Assembly (NCBI RefSeq): GCF_000719115.1
Contig: NZ_JOEA01000015.1
Span: forward strand, 62,001 to 126,000
Direction of reading: 5' to 3'
DNA from: Lentzea albidocapillata
GTDB lineage: Bacteria; Actinomycetota; Actinomycetes; Mycobacteriales; Pseudonocardiaceae
DNA length: 64,000 nt
The notes under the pieces are model-generated. The model saw only the letters and a program-made list of their open reading frames with translations, searched no databases and was not told the origin of the DNA. Position 1 is the stretch's first letter. Every line of letters begins with the position of its first letter. A program made the translations under genes and the position numbers. Shown in pieces: positions 51,219 through 63,024 of the stretch.

Positions 51219-51998
51219 GTGAGCGCTCTAGCAGCCGCCGTGTCTCTCGCGGCCTCGCACGGCGTGGTCTGTTCCGACCCGGTCGTGCTCAAGCACAGCA
51301 GCAACGTCCTCGTGCACCTGCGCCCAGCCCCAGTCGTCGCCCGAATCGCGGCGCGCACTTTTTTGGTGCGCCCTACGGTCGCCTCACACTTCGCACGCGA
51401 CCTGTCGGTGTCGTCGTTCCTGGCCTCGCGCGGCGTGCCGGTCGTAACTCCCTCTTCAGAGCTGCCCGCAGGACCTCACACACACGACGGCTTCGTGATC
51501 TCGTTCAGCACGTACGTCCCGCACGACCCCACGGCGCGACTGTCCAGGCAGGACGTCCTCAAGCTCCTGCCTGACCTGCACGCCGAACTGAGGCTCTACG
51601 AGGGCCGGCTGCCCACGCGCGGCACGCTGGACGACGTGGACAACGTCCTGACCTACCTGGACGGCCTGGGCGTGCCCGACCTGGCCAGGTTTCGCAAGTG
51701 GCGCGACGACCTGCTCACCGGCTGGCCCGCGCACTACAACGACGTCCAGCCCCTGCACGGCGACCCGCACCCAGGCAACCTGCTGGTGACCCCCTCGGGC
51801 CCGGTCTGGAACGACTTCGAGGACACCTGGCGCGGCCCGCTCGCCTGGGACCTGGCCTGCTCCGCGGACAAAGAAGAAGCCGCCCAACGCACCGTAGAGA
51901 TCTACGGCGGCGGGGCGGCTCCTTCAGACGTGGAGTTCCACGTGGAGACACGACGCATGTTCGGCACGCTCTGGGGCGTGCTCATGCAGTGGTCTTAG
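51219..51998 (+). CDS. aminoglycoside phosphotransferase-fold (APH) kinase-like protein
   Basis: 259-residue protein-kinase-fold enzyme. The catalytic loop HGDPHPGNLL and the metal site NDFEDTWRGP are intact; the N-lobe is short. Small-molecule phosphotransferase; nothing shows that it acts on antibiotics. GTG 51219 is 16 bp after the DUF305 gene; its stop overlaps the stop of the convergent surface protein by 4 bp. Confidence 0.82.
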   Translation: MSALAAAVSLAASHGVVCSDPVVLKHSSNVLVHLRPAPVVARIAARTFLVRPTVASHFARDLSVSSFLASRGVPVVTPSSELPAGPHTHDGFVISFSTYVPHDPTARLSRQDVLKLLPDLHAELRLYEGRLPTRGTLDDVDNVLTYLDGLGVPDLARFRKWRDDLLTGWPAHYNDVQPLHGDPHPGNLLVTPSGPVWNDFEDTWRGPLAWDLACSADKEEAAQRTVEIYGGGAAPSDVEFHVETRRMFGTLWGVLMQWS

Positions 51999-52717
51999 AC
52001 GCGACGCCTGCGCATCACGAGCACCAGCGCGGCACCAGCGGCGACGAGCGCGGCACCGAGGCCGAGCATCCAGGCGGACCCGAACCCGGTGGCGGCGAGG
52101 TCGTCCTCGTTGGCGACCGGCACGACCGCGGCCGTGGTGGTCGTGGTGGGCGCGACCTCGGAGGACGACGCCCCGGTGGTCGTGGTGGTGGTGCTGGACG
52201 ACGAGGACGGGGTCGACGACTGCGTCACGGTCGTAGTCGTCGTGGTGGTCGTCGTCGTCGTGGTCGTCGTGTCCTTGATGCCACAGCCGTACCAGTGGCT
52301 GATGTCCGAGCCGTTCCCGTTGTCCTTCAGGGGAGCGCGGAGCTTCTCCCACGGCAACGTCGCGCCGAGCTTGTCAGCGAGGTAGACGTTGAACACGGGG
52401 CCGCCCTTGACCACGATGCCCGTGACCGTCATGCCCTCGGGCAGCCGGGACAGTCCGGTGATGTTCAGGTGCAGTTCGTTGTCGCCACCCGAGTAGTCGA
52501 ACAGGTTCGGGTGGATCGTCGAGCCGGTCAGTCCGCCGACCGTGCAGGCATCAGGGTGGTTGATGTCGACGTTGTTGAGGTACGCCGTCGCACGCGGGTC
52601 GTCGGTGACCGGTGCGTCCGGCTGAGCCAGCGACGTGGTCGCCAGGGCGAGCGTGGCCACAGCGGCCATGGCGGCCGAGGCGAGCAGGCCGGATCTTCTC
52701 AGAGGCGTCAGGCGCAT
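51995..52717 (-). CDS. LAXTG-anchored surface protein with polythreonine stalk
   Basis: 240-residue exported protein: signal peptide (ATTSLAQPD, about 31), a ~115-residue globular domain with two cysteines (DACTVGG and YGCGIKD), a stalk with 14 consecutive Thr followed by Ser/Thr runs, then the sorting signal LAATG (about 207-211), a hydrophobic helix and RRRR. LAXTG is the class E sortase motif; no sortase lies in the window. ATG 52717. Cargo function unknown. Confidence 0.82.
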   Translation of the reverse strand: MRLTPLRRSGLLASAAMAAVATLALATTSLAQPDAPVTDDPRATAYLNNVDINHPDACTVGGLTGSTIHPNLFDYSGGDNELHLNITGLSRLPEGMTVTGIVVKGGPVFNVYLADKLGATLPWEKLRAPLKDNGNGSDISHWYGCGIKDTTTTTTTTTTTTTTVTQSSTPSSSSSTTTTTTGASSSEVAPTTTTTAAVVPVANEDDLAATGFGSAWMLGLGAALVAAGAALVLVMRRRRV

Positions 52718-52859
52718 CGGGTTACTCCGTGAGGGTTGGCGGATTCGGAGATCTAAGACGATCGACGTCCCCCGAACGGTCTAGATGACGATCAACTTCG
52801 CCCTTGTGGCCGAGTTGTTACCCGTCCGTGAGGTCGCATCCCCAAACGACCGAACGCCG

Positions 52860-52889
52860 AAGGGGGCCTGCCCGACGGCAGACCCCCTT
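52860..52889 (-). terminator. hairpin after the small WFRRM gene
   Basis: AAGGGGGCCTGCC (52860-52872), loop CGAC, complement at 52877-52889 with one G-U pair: 13 pairs. It starts 27 bp after the stop of the 62-codon gene on the minus strand and most likely ends that transcript, showing that the tiny gene is expressed as the end of an operon. Confidence 0.7.
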
Positions 52890-52916
52890 GAAAAGCACAC
52901 GGGCGCGGAACGACTT

Positions 52917-53105
52917 TCAGTCGTTCTCCGCCACCTCGGCGGGCTTGAGGAACACCGTGCCACCGTTCGGCATGCGCCGGAACCAGTCAACGGGAGTAAC
53001 GGGCTGGCCGAGCACCGGACCCACCCCAGTGGGGAGGTGGGGAACAGGAACGCCGGCACCAAGGGGGATCTGGGGCCGACCGAGAGGCTGGTTCGGGGTG
53101 GTCAT
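52917..53105 (-). CDS. 62-residue putative precursor peptide (RiPP-like)
   Basis: Too short for ordinary calling but well supported: GAAGGAACC directly before ATG 53105, a terminator after the stop and a second copy upstream. The peptide has a Pro/Gly-rich leader (MTTPNQPLGR, then LGAGVPVPHLPTG), a core VTPVDWFRRMPNGG (37-49) and an acidic tail KPAEVAEND. It has no signal peptide. The gene lies on the same strand downstream of an HExxH-motif protein, a family linked to modification of ribosomal peptides, so I read it as a possible precursor. No known RiPP class recognised. Confidence 0.65.
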   Translation of the reverse strand: MTTPNQPLGRPQIPLGAGVPVPHLPTGVGPVLGQPVTPVDWFRRMPNGGTVFLKPAEVAEND

Positions 53106-53241
53106 GGTTCCTTCTCGACGAATGGGTCGGGGCCTGCGCACGAGGAACTCCGGATACCCGGGAAGCCCTGGCCACATCCGTCTACAACACGGTGTCGAGC
53201 TGGTGATACCCGGTTCGCCTGAGTGTGACCTCGAACGATAT

Positions 53242-53584
53242 TCATCGCCTATCGTCACGACGCACGCCGGAAAACGACTGGTGGCGGCGTCGAGCACGTA
53301 AGGGTTTGTGGCACACCGGGTGGACCGGATGCGGAAGTCTACAACGCCCCGCAAGGGGCCTCACCTGCACGTTCGCCGCCTGCAACACGAAAGCGTGAGG
53401 CCCGCCGATCACCCCGCACAAGGGGGGACGACGGGCAGGGCCACGATGGGCCATGCGGCGGAACCACTCGATCGGTACCACGGACCGCCTCTCTGGCATG
53501 CCCGCTCCAGGCAGCCGCGGGAGGCGCGCTCCTAACGGCCGGAGGGAACTGCTGCTGACGGACAACCCGGTTCGAGGTGGTCAT
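53242..53584 (-). pseudogene. frameshifted second copy of the WFRRM peptide gene
   Basis: Starts at ATG 53584 with the same context as the intact copy (AAGGAACC then ATGACCACC, giving MTTSN). After about six codons the similarity jumps to another frame, which reads PRLPGAGMPERRSVVPIEWF, then RRMAHRG, and matches PHLPTGVGP...VTPVDWFRRM of the intact copy. That second frame runs to 53242; its later part (FVLQAANVQV) resembles VFLKPAEVAE after an inserted segment. Either a single indel killed the copy or the second frame starts at TTG 53565. A GCCCC/GGGGC hairpin (53346-53359) lies inside the frame. Confidence 0.6.
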
Positions 53585-53607
53585 GGTTCCTTATAAAAAA
53601 GGTTGAG

Positions 53608-54888
53608 TCACTCACTCGCTTCAATGATCGAGAAAACGTGCAACGACCCCAGAGCGGCTGCCAGCCGCCGCCGCGCCTCGGGCCGGTCGACCCGCCACTG
53701 CTCGGTGGCGTTCCCGAGCAGCAGTCCGAACGGCGCGGGCGCCCGGCGGCACTCGCTCAGCACCCAGCCGGCGTCGGAGTCGAGCCAGAAGATCTCCGGC
53801 CGTTCCTCCATGCGACCCACCACGGCGCGACCACTCTTCGCAAGCCGGTAGGTCACGTCCGGCGGCACCCGGAAGTTCCCGTCCTCGCGGATACCGGCAG
53901 CAAGGAGGGACGCCTCCACAGTGGACACCCCTTCGACCGCATCGGCCACTTGGCCCGCGAGAGCGCGCAGCAACCATCGAGCATCCGGCAGCAGGTCGTG
54001 CTCGTGCGCGAGCAACCAGTCGCCGATCTCCGCGGCCCGCTCCCGCGCCTTGGGCAGCAAGGAGTGCGGGCCAAGCTGTTCCGACTCGGACGACAGGAAG
54101 AACTGGCCGAGACAGGTGTAGGCGTGCCAGGCCGCAAAGGTCTGTTCCAGCGGCCATCGGGCGTGAGACCACGAGTTCTCGAAATACTCCGCGTCTTCGG
54201 CGTGCGCGTCGAGGAACTCTCGCGTGATGGCCAAGTCGAAGAACTTCTCGTGCGCACCCTCGTGCACAAGTGCCTCAGCTACCTCCATCGGGCCGACCGG
54301 CTCGTCGATCAGCACGATTCCGGGCACGTATCGCGACGACGCGGAGACCACTCCCCCGGACGTCTCCGCCTTGAGCACCGCGAGCATCGACACGTGGGCC
54401 AGCAGATCGCCGGCCAGCGCGGGTGCGAGTCGCCTGAACAGGTCGACGCCCTCAGCCACGATCCTGATCGCCGTCTCGAACCGCTCACCGTCCGCCTCGG
54501 TCAGCGGCTGCGGCGCCTGACCGGGTGGGGCGATGATGCGCAACGGCGCTTCGAGCTGTTCAGCGGCCGCCGGATCGGACACCACCGCGATGCCTGCGTC
54601 CCGCACGCCCATCGCGGCGAGCTCGCGCAGCGCCTCCGGGTCCACGCCACCGTGCCCCGCCAGAGCGCGACCGATCTCGTAGCGCACGATCGGATGGTCG
54701 AGGAGGTTGTCTGACATCTCCGTGCCGGGCGCGAACAGTTCGACGGCGAGGCGGTAGAGCGCACGTCGCTCGTCGACCAGCACGTCGGCAGGCGCGAGCC
54801 GCGCATGCAGTGCGGGTGCTGATGGAGAACTCAACATCGAAGACCCCGTGTTCACGTACCCGGCGGCGTGGAGTCGGCGCTTGACCAC
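53608..54888 (-). CDS. HExxH-motif protein, putative peptide-modifying enzyme
   Basis: 426 residues, mostly helical, with the metal-binding motif HEGAH at 209-213 in EALVHEGAHEKFFDL. It resembles the HExxH-motif domain found alone or fused in RiPP clusters of actinomycetes, some members of which act as 2-oxoglutarate-type peptide beta-hydroxylases. The C-terminal ~100 residues (NFRVPPDVTYRLAKSGRAV, FWLDSDAGWVL) may be a recognition domain. GTG 54888 has GGGAG six nt upstream; ATG 54837 is an alternative. Its stop is 23 bp before the frameshifted small peptide gene on the same strand. Confidence 0.72.
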   Translation of the reverse strand: MVKRRLHAAGYVNTGSSMLSSPSAPALHARLAPADVLVDERRALYRLAVELFAPGTEMSDNLLDHPIVRYEIGRALAGHGGVDPEALRELAAMGVRDAGIAVVSDPAAAEQLEAPLRIIAPPGQAPQPLTEADGERFETAIRIVAEGVDLFRRLAPALAGDLLAHVSMLAVLKAETSGGVVSASSRYVPGIVLIDEPVGPMEVAEALVHEGAHEKFFDLAITREFLDAHAEDAEYFENSWSHARWPLEQTFAAWHAYTCLGQFFLSSESEQLGPHSLLPKARERAAEIGDWLLAHEHDLLPDARWLLRALAGQVADAVEGVSTVEASLLAAGIREDGNFRVPPDVTYRLAKSGRAVVGRMEERPEIFWLDSDAGWVLSECRRAPAPFGLLLGNATEQWRVDRPEARRRLAAALGSLHVFSIIEASE

Positions 54889-54955
54889 CGCAAACTCCCT
54901 GTCGCGGGAAGATAGCGACCTGGGTCACCGACGCGAAACCGGGATCCCCCGCAAG

Positions 54956-55000
54956 ACCGGTGCCCGGCCTGCGCCTGGGGGACGCCGACCGGGCACCGGT
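54956..55000 (-). terminator. 12-bp perfect hairpin after the 50-residue peptide gene
   Basis: ACCGGTGCCCGG (54956-54967) and its complement (54989-55000) around a 21-nt loop, located 13 bp after the stop of the small membrane gene and 68 bp before the HExxH start, all on the minus strand. It may end the short transcript or attenuate readthrough into the HExxH gene. Confidence 0.6.
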
Positions 55001-55012
55001 TGGTTCTGCTCA

Positions 55013-55165
55013 TCAGCCGAACATGATGCTGGTGACGTTCACGAAGCCGACGACGGCCAGTGCGATGACCGAGACGGCGATCATCGTGATCACGGTGCGC
55101 CAGCCGATCGCGGTGACGGCGACTGCGACGGCGGCGGCGATTCCGAGTGCACTCCCTGCGGACAT
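55013..55165 (-). CDS. 50-residue membrane peptide
   Basis: Small gene with a good ribosome site (GGAGGGAACGAG before ATG 55165). The product is nearly all hydrophobic: ALGIAAAVAVAVTAIGW, then TVITMIAVSVIALAVVGFVNV, giving two short or one kinked membrane helix. Codon third positions are GC-rich as in real genes here. It is divergent from the GntR gene, whose palindromes lie in between, and upstream of the HExxH gene on the same strand. Function unknown; an immunity-type or export-helper role is only a guess. Confidence 0.7.
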   Translation of the reverse strand: MSAGSALGIAAAVAVAVTAIGWRTVITMIAVSVIALAVVGFVNVTSIMFG

Positions 55166-55253
55166 CTCGTTCCCTCCCGACTAGGCGAGTACGTGCTCCC
55201 GGGTGTGGGCGGTCCCAGGCGCCTCGCCTGGGACAAGAGTCTCGCGTTGTAGG

Positions 55254-55295
55254 TTGTCTGTCAACGGTCGCCAGGTTGCCAGACAAGTTGCAACT
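55254..55295. promoter_or_regulatory. probable GntR operator
   Basis: TTGTCTGTCAAC (55254-55265) and GTTGCCAGACAA (55275-55286) form an inverted repeat, 11 of 12 pairs, 9 bp apart, immediately followed by the perfect palindrome AGTTGCAACT (55286-55295). It lies between the divergent membrane-peptide gene and the GntR gene, just upstream of TAAGCT (55311-55316). FadR-type regulators bind palindromes of this size. Confidence 0.65.
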
Positions 55296-55322
55296 GACCG
55301 GCAACACGCCTAAGCTGGACCA

Positions 55323-56120
55323 ATGCCCGCCGAGGACGTTCATCGAGGCGAGAGCTGGTCGCTCTCGCCTGATTCGCGACGGCCCCTGCCGGAGCTGATC
55401 GAGCAAAAGCTCCGGGAGCAGATCATCGGTGGCACCCTCAAAGCCGGCGACCGCCTCCCCACCGAGCCGGAACTCGCCCGCAAACTGGATGTCGCCCGGT
55501 CGTCGCTGCGCACGGCCCTGCAGCGGCTCCAGTTGCAGGGCATCGTCGAGGTCCGCCGCGGGCTGGGCTGGTACGTCCGCCGCACCGACCTCGCCGCCGT
55601 CGAGGAGCACATCGAGGGAAGGCTCGCCGCGCGGCAGTTCTCCCAGACCGACCTGCTGGAAGTGCGGATCGCGCTGGAGACCACCGCGGCGTCGCTGGCC
55701 GCGGTGCGCGCCGGCGACGGCGAACTGGACGAACTCGCCAAGCTGAACCTCCGCTACCAGCGCGCGCCGGTCGAGGACACCCAGGAGGTGATCGAGTCGG
55801 ACGAGGAGTTCCACTCGGCACTGATCCGCGCGTCGCACAACGAACTGCTGGAGCAGATGTACCAGGTGCTCGTGCCGGGCCTGCAGGACTGCAAGCGGCA
55901 CGCGCACCCGTCCCGCGAGGTGCACAACCGTTCCGCGAACGAGCACGAGCAGGTGATCTGGTTCCTCCGCCGGCACGACGAGGTGGGCGCGAAGAGCGCG
56001 ATGACCACCCATCTGCTCGGGTTGTACAACGACGTGGCCACGGACGACACGCAGCCCAAAGCGACCCTCAGCACCTACGTCGGGGTGTCGGACAACCCGA
56101 TCTGGGGCAAGTCGCGCTGA
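55323..56120 (+). CDS. GntR-family regulator (FadR/FCD subfamily)
   Basis: 265-residue regulator. Winged helix at about 25-85 (LIEQKLREQIIGGTLKAGDRLPTE, quoted in part as IIGGTLKAGDRLPTE; VARSSLRTALQRLQLQGIVEV), then an all-helical FCD domain with metal/ligand residues around DEEFHSALIRASHN and EHEQVIWFLRRHD. ATG 55323 lies 6 nt after TAAGCT without Shine-Dalgarno. The upstream palindromes make autoregulation and control of the divergent small gene likely; the effector is probably an organic acid. Confidence 0.88.
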   Translation: MPAEDVHRGESWSLSPDSRRPLPELIEQKLREQIIGGTLKAGDRLPTEPELARKLDVARSSLRTALQRLQLQGIVEVRRGLGWYVRRTDLAAVEEHIEGRLAARQFSQTDLLEVRIALETTAASLAAVRAGDGELDELAKLNLRYQRAPVEDTQEVIESDEEFHSALIRASHNELLEQMYQVLVPGLQDCKRHAHPSREVHNRSANEHEQVIWFLRRHDEVGAKSAMTTHLLGLYNDVATDDTQPKATLSTYVGVSDNPIWGKSR

Positions 56121-56208: not shown

Positions 56209-57345
56209 GTGGTGACGGCGCACAAGCACAAACAAGCGCTGGCCGTCGCGATCCTGTTGGTCACCGTCGCGGCCGCGGACCTGACGGCGGTCCTGCTGTG
56301 GCAGCCCACTTCGCGCAGCCTCCTGCACGACGCGTTGGTCGTGTTCTGGCCGCTGCCGGCGCTCGCGGGATTTCTGCTCGGCTTTTACGAACTGTTCCTG
56401 CACAAGCGCCTCGTCGCGGAGTTCGGCCGGATCTCCGGGCCTGGCATCGTCGAACACCTGCTGCCGTCCGAGGTGCTGCGCACCTTCCTCTCGTCCGTGT
56501 ACGGCCCGAACGACGCGAACGACGACGTGGTGGCGGGTGTGCTCGGCGGCGACGGCATGCGCCCGCGCGGCGACGACCTGACGATCAGCACCAGCACCAC
56601 CGTGAAGCTGGAACTGCAGGGCATCGACACCAAGACGTACCACCTGATGACGACGCAGCGGTACCGGTTCCGCAACGACGTCCCCACCGAACGCTTCGTC
56701 ATCTTCGCCACCTCGAACGCGACCCTGCGCGACAGCATCAGCGCCGCCTGCCGCTACCCGTTGTTCGAGCTGTACTTCATCCCGGACCCGTCGCTGTTCC
56801 TCGACTCGGTCGACGACCTGCGCCACTCCACCCAGATCGCCATCGACTACCTCGACCACGAAGGACTGCGCCGCTCGGCGGAACCCAGCCAGATCCCGCC
56901 GGTCGAGGTGAGGTTCGACCAATGGGCCAACTACCTGACGTTCTTCCGCGAGTCCACGGGCCCACTGGGCAAGCTCAGCCCGGTGGACCACATGAGTGAT
57001 CTGCGGATCCTCGAGTGCGACCTCAGCCGCATCGCGGACGACCACGTGGTGCGCGCGATCCGCGAGCTCACCGTCTGGTCACGTACGCTGCAGCGCACCA
57101 ACGACGGCTTCTGCTACTGGCAGTCGCCCTATCCGTCCTTTGTGGACACCATCAGCTTCGACGCGACCGGGCTGGAGGTCGACCAGTCCCCCAGGCACGA
57201 GTTCCGGGTCATGCCCTTCACCTTCCGGTCGGCGACGGCGGCCGCGCGCTGGCTGGAAGCAGGTGAGCTCGAGGACCTGGACGTGCGGTCGTGGCTTCTG
57301 CCGGGGCATGGGGTGGCCTTGCTGTGGCGAGAGGCAATGGGCTGA
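56209..57345 (+). CDS. membrane protein of unknown function
   Basis: 378 residues (GTG 56209; GTG 56212 possible). Two membrane helices at the N-terminus (AVAILLVTVAAADLTAVLLW and ALVVFWPLPALAGFLLGFYE), then a ~300-residue cytoplasmic or extracellular part with a beta-rich middle (LTISTSTTVKLELQG, YRFRNDVPTERFVIFATS) and a helical end. I recognise no domain. It lies alone between the GntR gene and the LacI operon, on the same strand. Confidence 0.65.
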   Translation: MVTAHKHKQALAVAILLVTVAAADLTAVLLWQPTSRSLLHDALVVFWPLPALAGFLLGFYELFLHKRLVAEFGRISGPGIVEHLLPSEVLRTFLSSVYGPNDANDDVVAGVLGGDGMRPRGDDLTISTSTTVKLELQGIDTKTYHLMTTQRYRFRNDVPTERFVIFATSNATLRDSISAACRYPLFELYFIPDPSLFLDSVDDLRHSTQIAIDYLDHEGLRRSAEPSQIPPVEVRFDQWANYLTFFRESTGPLGKLSPVDHMSDLRILECDLSRIADDHVVRAIRELTVWSRTLQRTNDGFCYWQSPYPSFVDTISFDATGLEVDQSPRHEFRVMPFTFRSATAAARWLEAGELEDLDVRSWLLPGHGVALLWREAMG

Positions 57346-57386
57346 GTCACCAGAGGACCAGGCGGTGGAGTGACGTTGCAAGTGAG

Positions 57387-61542: not shown

Positions 61543-63024
61543 ATGAGTTGGTGGCGCAACGCTTCCATCTACCAGGTCTACCTGCGCAGCTTCGCGGACG
61601 GCAACGGTGACGGCATCGGCGACCTGGCCGGCCTCCGCGACAAGCTCCAGCACATCGCGAGCCTCGGCTTCGACGCGATCTGGTTGAACCCGTGGTACCC
61701 GAGCCCGCTCGCGGACGGCGGCTACGACGTGGCGGACTACCGCGACATCGAGCCGGTCTTCGGGTCGCTCGCCGACGCCGAGAAGCTCATCGCGGACGCG
61801 CACGGCCTGGGCATCCGGATCATCATCGACCTCGTCCCGAACCACAGCAGCGACCAGCACCCGTGGTTCAAGGACGGCCTGTGGGACCGCTTCCACGTCC
61901 GTGCCACCGAGGAGATCCCGAACGACTGGCAGTCGCGCTTCGGCGGCCCCGCCTGGAGCAAGCTCGAGGACGGCCGCTGGTACCTGCACCTCTACGCCGC
62001 CGAGCAGCCGGACTTCAACTGGGAGAACCAGGTCGTCCACGACGAGTTCGAGGACATCCTGCGGTTCTGGCTCGACCGCGGCGTCGACGGCTTCCGCATC
62101 GACGTGGCCGACGGCCTGGTCAAGGACTTCAGCAGGCCCGACGCCGACCTGCCCTACTCCGACCAGGACGGCGTGCACGAGATCTACCGCCGGTGGCGGC
62201 AGATCGTCGACGAGTACGAGGGCGACCGCATCCTCGTCGGCGAGATGTGGCTGCCCGATCCGGTCAGGTTCGCCCGGTACCTCCGCCAGGACGAGATGCA
62301 CAGCGCGTTCAACTTCGACTTCCTGTGCTGCCCGTGGAACGCCGACGAGCTGCGCAAGGTCGTCGACAGCACACTGGCCGCGCACGAACCCGTTGGCGCG
62401 CCACCGACCTGGGTGCTCTCGAACCACGACGTCACCAGGCACGTGACCCGCTACGGCCGCGAGAAGACGGGATTCTCCTTCGCGGACAGGCAGCACGGCG
62501 CCCCGACCGACTTCGAACTGGGGACCCGCCGCGCCCGCGCGGCGATCATGCTCACCGCGGCACTGCCCGGCGGCGTCTACGTCTACCAGGGCGAGGAGCT
62601 GGGCCTCTGGGAGGTCGAGGACCTGCCGGACGAGCTGCGCGAGGACCCGGTGTGGCACCGCTCCGGCTTCACCGACCGGGGCCGTGACGGCTGCCGCGTG
62701 CCACTCCCCTGGTCCGCCGAGGACGGTCCGAGCTGGTTGCCGCAACCCGAGAACTGGCAGGACTTCTCGGTCGCGGTCCAGTCGGACGACCCGGAGTCGA
62801 TGCTCGCTCTGTACCGCCAGGTGTTCGCGCAACGCCGCGGCATCGACGGTGATCTGGAGTGGCTCGACCTGGGCGAGGACGTGCTGGCGTTCAAGCGCGG
62901 CGGCCACACCTGCGTCGTCAACCTGTCGGACCAGGCGATCGATCTGCCGGGCGTGCCAACGTTGTCAAGCGTCCCGCTCACCAACGGCCAGCTGCCGCCG
63001 GACGCCGCGGCCTGGATCTCCTGA
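61543..63024 (+). CDS. GH13 alpha-glucosidase
   Basis: Cytoplasmic 493-residue enzyme of the oligo-1,6-glucosidase/alpha-glucosidase group that hydrolyses the imported sugar. The (beta/alpha)8 catalytic residues are visible: nucleophile Asp187 (GFRIDVAD), acid/base Glu234 (VGEMW) and Asp296 (LSNHDV); conserved region I is DLVPNHSS. No signal peptide. ATG 61543 follows AAAGGA. Last gene of the LacI-controlled operon. Trehalose- or sucrose-type specificity cannot be excluded. Confidence 0.93.
   Translation: MSWWRNASIYQVYLRSFADGNGDGIGDLAGLRDKLQHIASLGFDAIWLNPWYPSPLADGGYDVADYRDIEPVFGSLADAEKLIADAHGLGIRIIIDLVPNHSSDQHPWFKDGLWDRFHVRATEEIPNDWQSRFGGPAWSKLEDGRWYLHLYAAEQPDFNWENQVVHDEFEDILRFWLDRGVDGFRIDVADGLVKDFSRPDADLPYSDQDGVHEIYRRWRQIVDEYEGDRILVGEMWLPDPVRFARYLRQDEMHSAFNFDFLCCPWNADELRKVVDSTLAAHEPVGAPPTWVLSNHDVTRHVTRYGREKTGFSFADRQHGAPTDFELGTRRARAAIMLTAALPGGVYVYQGEELGLWEVEDLPDELREDPVWHRSGFTDRGRDGCRVPLPWSAEDGPSWLPQPENWQDFSVAVQSDDPESMLALYRQVFAQRRGIDGDLEWLDLGEDVLAFKRGGHTCVVNLSDQAIDLPGVPTLSSVPLTNGQLPPDAAAWIS

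Follow-up and report, generated by a model that had tools for sequence, protein, structure and literature searches.

Does the HExxH protein encoded in a stretch of the genome of the soil actinobacterium Lentzea albidocapillata form, together with the tiny genes that follow it, a system for ribosomally synthesized and post-translationally modified peptides (RiPPs), and if so, what would its enzyme do to them? The stretch analysed (called the window for simplicity) comprises 64,000 nucleotides, positions 62,001 to 126,000 of contig NZ_JOEA01000015.1, and carries the enzyme gene on the minus strand at 53608..54888 (426 amino acids (aa) with the GTG start as listed; the real start codon may lie about 17 codons further in). 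An earlier note on this DNA had proposed a RiPP-type cassette, and the following features it had read there were recovered in our analysis: the HEGAH motif at residues 209-213 (54250..54264, minus strand, in the translation of the open reading frame (ORF)), the 23 bp between the enzyme stop codon and the start of the first small gene (ATG at 53584), the identical translation starts AAGGAACC-ATGACCACC at 53584 and 53105, and a 62-residue ORF. This ORF (52917..53105, minus strand) encodes an intact, precursor-like peptide of 62 aa with the core PVTPVDWFRRMPNGGTVFLKPAE, called peptide B here, as seen from the ORF and an alignment of Lentzea sequences. The proposed enzyme/precursor pair with a core of no known class held up: peptide B matched no Pfam or NCBIfam model, and a comparison of 27 core peptides with these two collections yielded chance-level matches only (E >= 0.12). 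We consider it probable that the locus encodes a self-contained RiPP-like system consisting of a regulator, a membrane partner, an oxygenase with a domain resembling a RiPP recognition element (RRE) and one to three precursors; in our view it represents a new RiPP-like family that draws on already known enzyme chemistry.

The association of enzyme and peptide genes was observed directly across the family. The enzyme was detected in 51 of 297 Pseudonocardiaceae genomes (E <= 1e-15) at 52 places, including 24/24 Lentzea genomes examined. Of these places 51 were read (24 in Lentzea and 27 in others), the weak 60.7-bit match in genome G518 being excluded. The arrangement expected of a RiPP system, a short conserved precursor gene adjoining a modifying enzyme, was found in 50 of the 51 loci read; the peptide lies downstream on the same strand and was recognized by regular expression in 49 cases and by eye in one (L151). 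The motif was sought within 1.7 kb downstream of the enzyme, where a broad regular expression matched in 49/51 loci and a strict one in 47/51; on the opposite strand it was met in none of the 51 loci, and in dinucleotide shuffles in 0 of 1020. All 24 Lentzea loci have a downstream peptide, the first intact one starting about 0.5 kb off in the window and in L095. Two observations had been named in advance as evidence against the pairing. One, an HExxH gene without a peptide nearby, was made once among the 51 loci, in L149, where no peptide is visible on a 6.1-kb metagenome contig. The other, a core without the enzyme, was not made: the DNA pattern [WF]FRRMPxGG occurred in 40 of the 297 family genomes, all of them among the 51 enzyme-positive ones (lists compared by hand), and was absent from the other 246 sampled genomes, which have no enzyme match. 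The 11 pattern-negative enzyme genomes comprise six of genus g87, two of g11 and three from Lentzea whose cores are variants; the WF-type core pattern was present in 22/24 Lentzea genomes. One of the 52 [WF]FRRMPxGG sites (G541:C71:17404-17429) lies on a contig separate from the enzyme and is possibly an orphan precursor. Beyond the family, the enzyme profile matched only the own genome among 394 genomes of the class (E <= 1e-12), and a W-only core pattern, sought across 397 genomes from the order, was found in five Lentzea genomes and at single sites in G144 and G396 from two other genera, which are probably due to chance. Further matches were noticed in Nonomuraea (32% identity) and Actinoplanes (L011; 38% over 88 residues), the latter having no core-like peptide by the first regular expression. 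A copy on a Pseudonocardia plasmid was rejected as spurious: the weak match spans only 8% of the query, is split into two pieces and falls on the margin of a hypothetical gene that is unrelated.

The shared core had been described as ending in WFRRM, which peptide B indeed contains; the full signature is longer, V-x-[WF]-F-x-R-M-P-x-G-G-T, and its PxGGT part had been missed. Among 75 core matches, which include paralogs and near-identical sequences (51 unique), the aromatic pair is WF in 54 and FF in 21, and the residue preceding it is D in 58, E in 6, Q in 4, S in 3, and N, A, T and V in one each. M1, F42, P46, G48 and T50 are invariant in a diverse alignment of 27 peptides; L155, outside this alignment, has a core without Pro. 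Of the residues previously suggested as the site of modification, two do not fit this pattern: the acidic residue was rejected as the target because any of the eight residues just listed can stand at its position, and the Asn near WFRRM, at the PNGG position, exchanges with T, G, A, V and Q. For peptide B in 23 of the 24 Lentzea (L098 excluded), the ratio of nonsynonymous to synonymous substitution rates (dN/dS) was 0.16 for the core, against 0.38 for the leader and 0.47 for the tail; because of these values, peptide B is a real coding gene under purifying selection. A profile search returned 126 relatives at E <= 0.01, and most of the 120 that were listed are nameless; those shown with names are hypothetical or uncharacterized proteins from Lentzea, Amycolatopsis, one Umezawaea metagenome-assembled genome (MAG) and Pseudonocardiales MAGs, P0075 bearing a status line only. 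Tandem cores like those of multi-core RiPP precursors were found in small proteins, two each in P0027, P0028 and P0034 and two to three in P0077. Core peptides with long C-terminal extensions were also observed (P0087, P0091, P0092 and P0096), and P0091 carries the precomputed Pfam families PF00196 and PF08281, which we take to be LuxR-type and sigma-70 helix-turn-helix families.

Two tiny core genes had been claimed for the window, and the claim stands for one of them. Gene B is intact with the core in frame; gene A (53452..53584, minus strand) is, from its frames and an alignment with L076 and L077, a broken remnant of a precursor-like gene. Translation from its ATG at 53584 gives 81 aa that do not include the core; WFRRM (ending at 53452) is encoded in a different frame. 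In the nearest relatives L076 and L077 (enzyme identity 95% and 88%, respectively), gene A encodes an intact peptide of 57 aa, compared with which the window copy shows frame-disrupting insertions or deletions and diverges past WFRRM. Because of these disruptions and the loss of the remaining core, gene A is, judged by the alignment, a remnant and gene B the working gene in the window genome. The peptide A starts of L092 and L093 are unreliable and the upstream peptide start of L089 is doubtful. The terminator said to close the unit was recovered in part: a GC-rich hairpin lies 3' of peptide B (about 52860..52889, minus strand, by folding; -44.5 kcal/mol and z -4.35 for an 82-nt stretch), but a terminator scan of 52700-55400 called none, and the label terminator is therefore unproven.

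The domain content of the enzyme was assigned by homology and by model. The enzyme scored 67.8 bits against TIGR04267 (alpha-ketoglutarate (alphaKG)-HExxH peptide beta-hydroxylase; curated cutoff 40) and carries two features of this family, the HExxH motif and a ChlB-type fold. The motif was found at 51/51 ortholog loci read, in the variants HEGAH, HECSH and HEAAH; the enzyme alignment covered 23 of the 24 Lentzea (L087 excluded). The C-terminal domain (about residues 331-426; 53608..53898, minus strand) resembles a PqqD-like RRE; both PqqD misses and a match to PKMT1 were recorded for it. From this domain content, the enzyme is a predicted alphaKG/Fe(II) HExxH oxygenase that would act on a peptide. 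Pentatricopeptide matches in the PDB were discarded as repeat artefacts, the single stretches of the two best scoring < 4 bits. The same genome contains a second, stronger TIGR04267 match (G000:C4:265607-266089, L012; 168.4 bits, open frame of 586 aa), possibly an FxsBH-type enzyme.

The earlier description of the cassette, enzyme plus peptides, was incomplete, in that the RRE-like domain, a membrane protein and a GntR regulator had been overlooked. Genes were called in the 51 loci by a simple procedure and clustered into families, of which the 45 largest were considered. Three families recur throughout the five genera: those of the enzyme (51/51), a 378-aa membrane protein (50/51) and a GntR/FCD regulator (50/51). 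In the window, the regulator gene is divergent (55323..56120, plus strand; Pfam FCD 7.5e-26, GntR 8.7e-18), and the gene at 56209..57345 (plus strand) encodes the 378-aa protein, composed of two hydrophobic N-terminal helices (transmembrane by eye) and a beta-rich domain. This protein matched no Pfam or NCBIfam model, its beta-rich domain gave weak fold matches only, and by the positive-inside rule, applied by eye, the beta domain would be cytoplasmic. Its alignment comprised 37 of 59 called copies and the window's own. A profile of the membrane protein run on 14 genomes found it in 10 of 11 with an enzyme match (absent from the weak-match genome G518); among the three without one, it was absent from G574 and G188 and present in G471 at a contig edge. 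In the g87/g11 loci displayed (L150, L152, L154, L155 and L156), the genes for GntR, membrane protein, enzyme and peptide follow one another in this order on one strand, and in L150 and L154 the gene calls for membrane protein and enzyme share about 22 nt. Clustering revealed a further small gene, for a 50-aa hydrophobic peptide (55013..55165, minus strand), called in 19/24 Lentzea, 18/18 g8 (Amycolatopsis-type) and 0/9 other loci. The remaining clusters belong to one genus or two (e.g. five neighbours that Lentzea shares with the only g97 genome), and no protease or transporter recurred in more than two genera.

At 57353..57377 (no strand assigned), a gap in the blastn alignment and the ORFs mark the junction where the loci of other Lentzea contain an additional segment, with a third core peptide, that the window lacks. 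In 18/24 Lentzea another core peptide is encoded 3.8-4.9 kb upstream of the enzyme stop codon. Nine Lentzea loci (L077, L078, L081, L082, L085, L090, L091, L092 and L095) have, in this segment, a second, diverged membrane-protein paralog (18-20% identity for the five that were aligned); seven of these loci carry a core peptide next to it, and none was seen in L078 and L095. The window gene at 51995-52717 (minus strand) codes for a Thr-rich surface protein whose C-terminus bears a sortase-like LAATG signal; its family was found in 23/24 Lentzea loci (two copies in L077) and in no other genus.

How would such a system work? In our favoured reading, the GntR/FCD regulator probably controls a unit of membrane protein, enzyme and one to three short precursors. 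With its RRE-like domain the enzyme would grip the precursor, which we infer to be its substrate, upstream of the core, the HExxH domain would oxidise the C-terminal core V-x-[WF]-F-x-R-M-P-x-GG-T, and the membrane protein might, as a guess, tether the peptide or pass it on. According to two reports (PMC12636437, PMC13060819), known alphaKG-HExxH enzymes hydroxylate Asp and His (after cyclophane formation by a radical SAM (rSAM) enzyme), Gln, Phe and Pro, and PflC and PosC make an oxidative backbone cut at Ala that leaves an amide, PosC also partly at Gly in a variant. Because the core keeps Phe, Pro and Gly-Gly and does not keep the acidic residue, two reactions, both at invariant or nearly invariant residues, are favoured: beta-hydroxylation of the core Phe or Pro, to which we would give somewhat less than an even chance, and, as a tentative candidate, alpha-oxidation at the core Gly-Gly, which would cut the backbone and leave an amide. 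Alternatively, the HExxH protein may be a zincin metallopeptidase that cleaves the peptides to free a C-terminal fragment; related peptide-processing systems were first interpreted as cleavage, and we regard this explanation as unlikely here.

The oxygenase reading was compared with described systems. FxsBH/ChlB-HExxH proteins, in which an rSAM domain is fused to alphaKG-HExxH, share the HExxH fold and family as well as tiny precursors whose C-terminal motif is conserved; the Lentzea enzyme differs in having no radical SAM domain, another core motif and a C-terminal RRE-like domain. An FxSxx C-terminus was not found in the peptide alignment, and Pfam/NCBIfam identified no rSAM protein among the families recurring in all five genera, no rSAM profile having been applied to the loci. 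In Pseudomonas, the pfl and pos clusters likewise combine a stand-alone alphaKG-HExxH enzyme (PflC/PosC) with a small precursor and no dedicated cluster protease, but their nitrile-hydratase-like leader, Gln run plus ARMD and MNIO-nitroreductase partner were not seen here: ARMD was absent from the peptide alignments, and no MNIO-nitroreductase was among the families recurring in all genera, no MNIO profile having been run on the loci. PesO of the nitrilobacillin cluster is also an alphaKG-HExxH enzyme acting on a precursor, at Pro, whereas that cluster has an MNIO, an asparagine-synthetase-like enzyme, M16 peptidases and a transporter.

The actinobacterial peptide-processing systems of PMC7159879 also pair a zincin-like protein with a small diverging protein that has a conserved C-terminal peptide, and the signature V-x-[WF]F-x-R-M-P-x-GGT falls outside the four types given there (FxSxx, RxD, acidic and FtsH-associated). 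The same text places known pairs of zincin and small peptide with conserved C-terminal motifs beside NTPase effectors and also mentions standalone versions. The locus might be a standalone branch of such conflict systems, with the modified or cut peptide acting defensively as a toxin or alarm signal. No ATPase or ternary-system family recurred in the loci, and apart from the three families of enzyme, membrane protein and regulator, none recurred in more than two genera. PADLOC at E 0.1 gave no match for the enzyme, the membrane protein, the 50-aa protein or peptide B, and the regulator weakly touched two of its models only. Typical defence genes are patchy, whereas this system occurs in 24/24 Lentzea examined, and we hold a defensive role to be improbable. 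That the peptides are partner or regulatory micro-proteins binding the enzyme or membrane protein instead of substrates, as the upstream core peptides of 18/24 Lentzea (seven adjoining the second membrane-protein paralog) might suggest, has a similarly slight chance, since the repeated cores in one peptide, the RRE-like domain and the enzyme class point to a substrate.

No description of the Lentzea enzyme/peptide family was found in the literature covered, subscription papers lying mostly outside it, and no paper was found for the string WFRRMP. An RRE-like domain on the alphaKG-HExxH fold was not described in the accessible texts, including PMC12710340, PMC12707348, PMC12452194, PMC13174530 and PMC12257519. 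The recurrence of this enzyme/peptide pairing across related genera points to a family of peptides, modified by an enzyme, that has not been described before. According to PMC13060819, the reactions of alphaKG-HExxH enzymes are at present unpredictable, and the peptides described here provide a defined, genus-spanning candidate substrate family for these enzymes. Because all 24 Lentzea genomes examined retain the system, its product likely has a standing role in these bacteria and is not a sporadic antibiotic.
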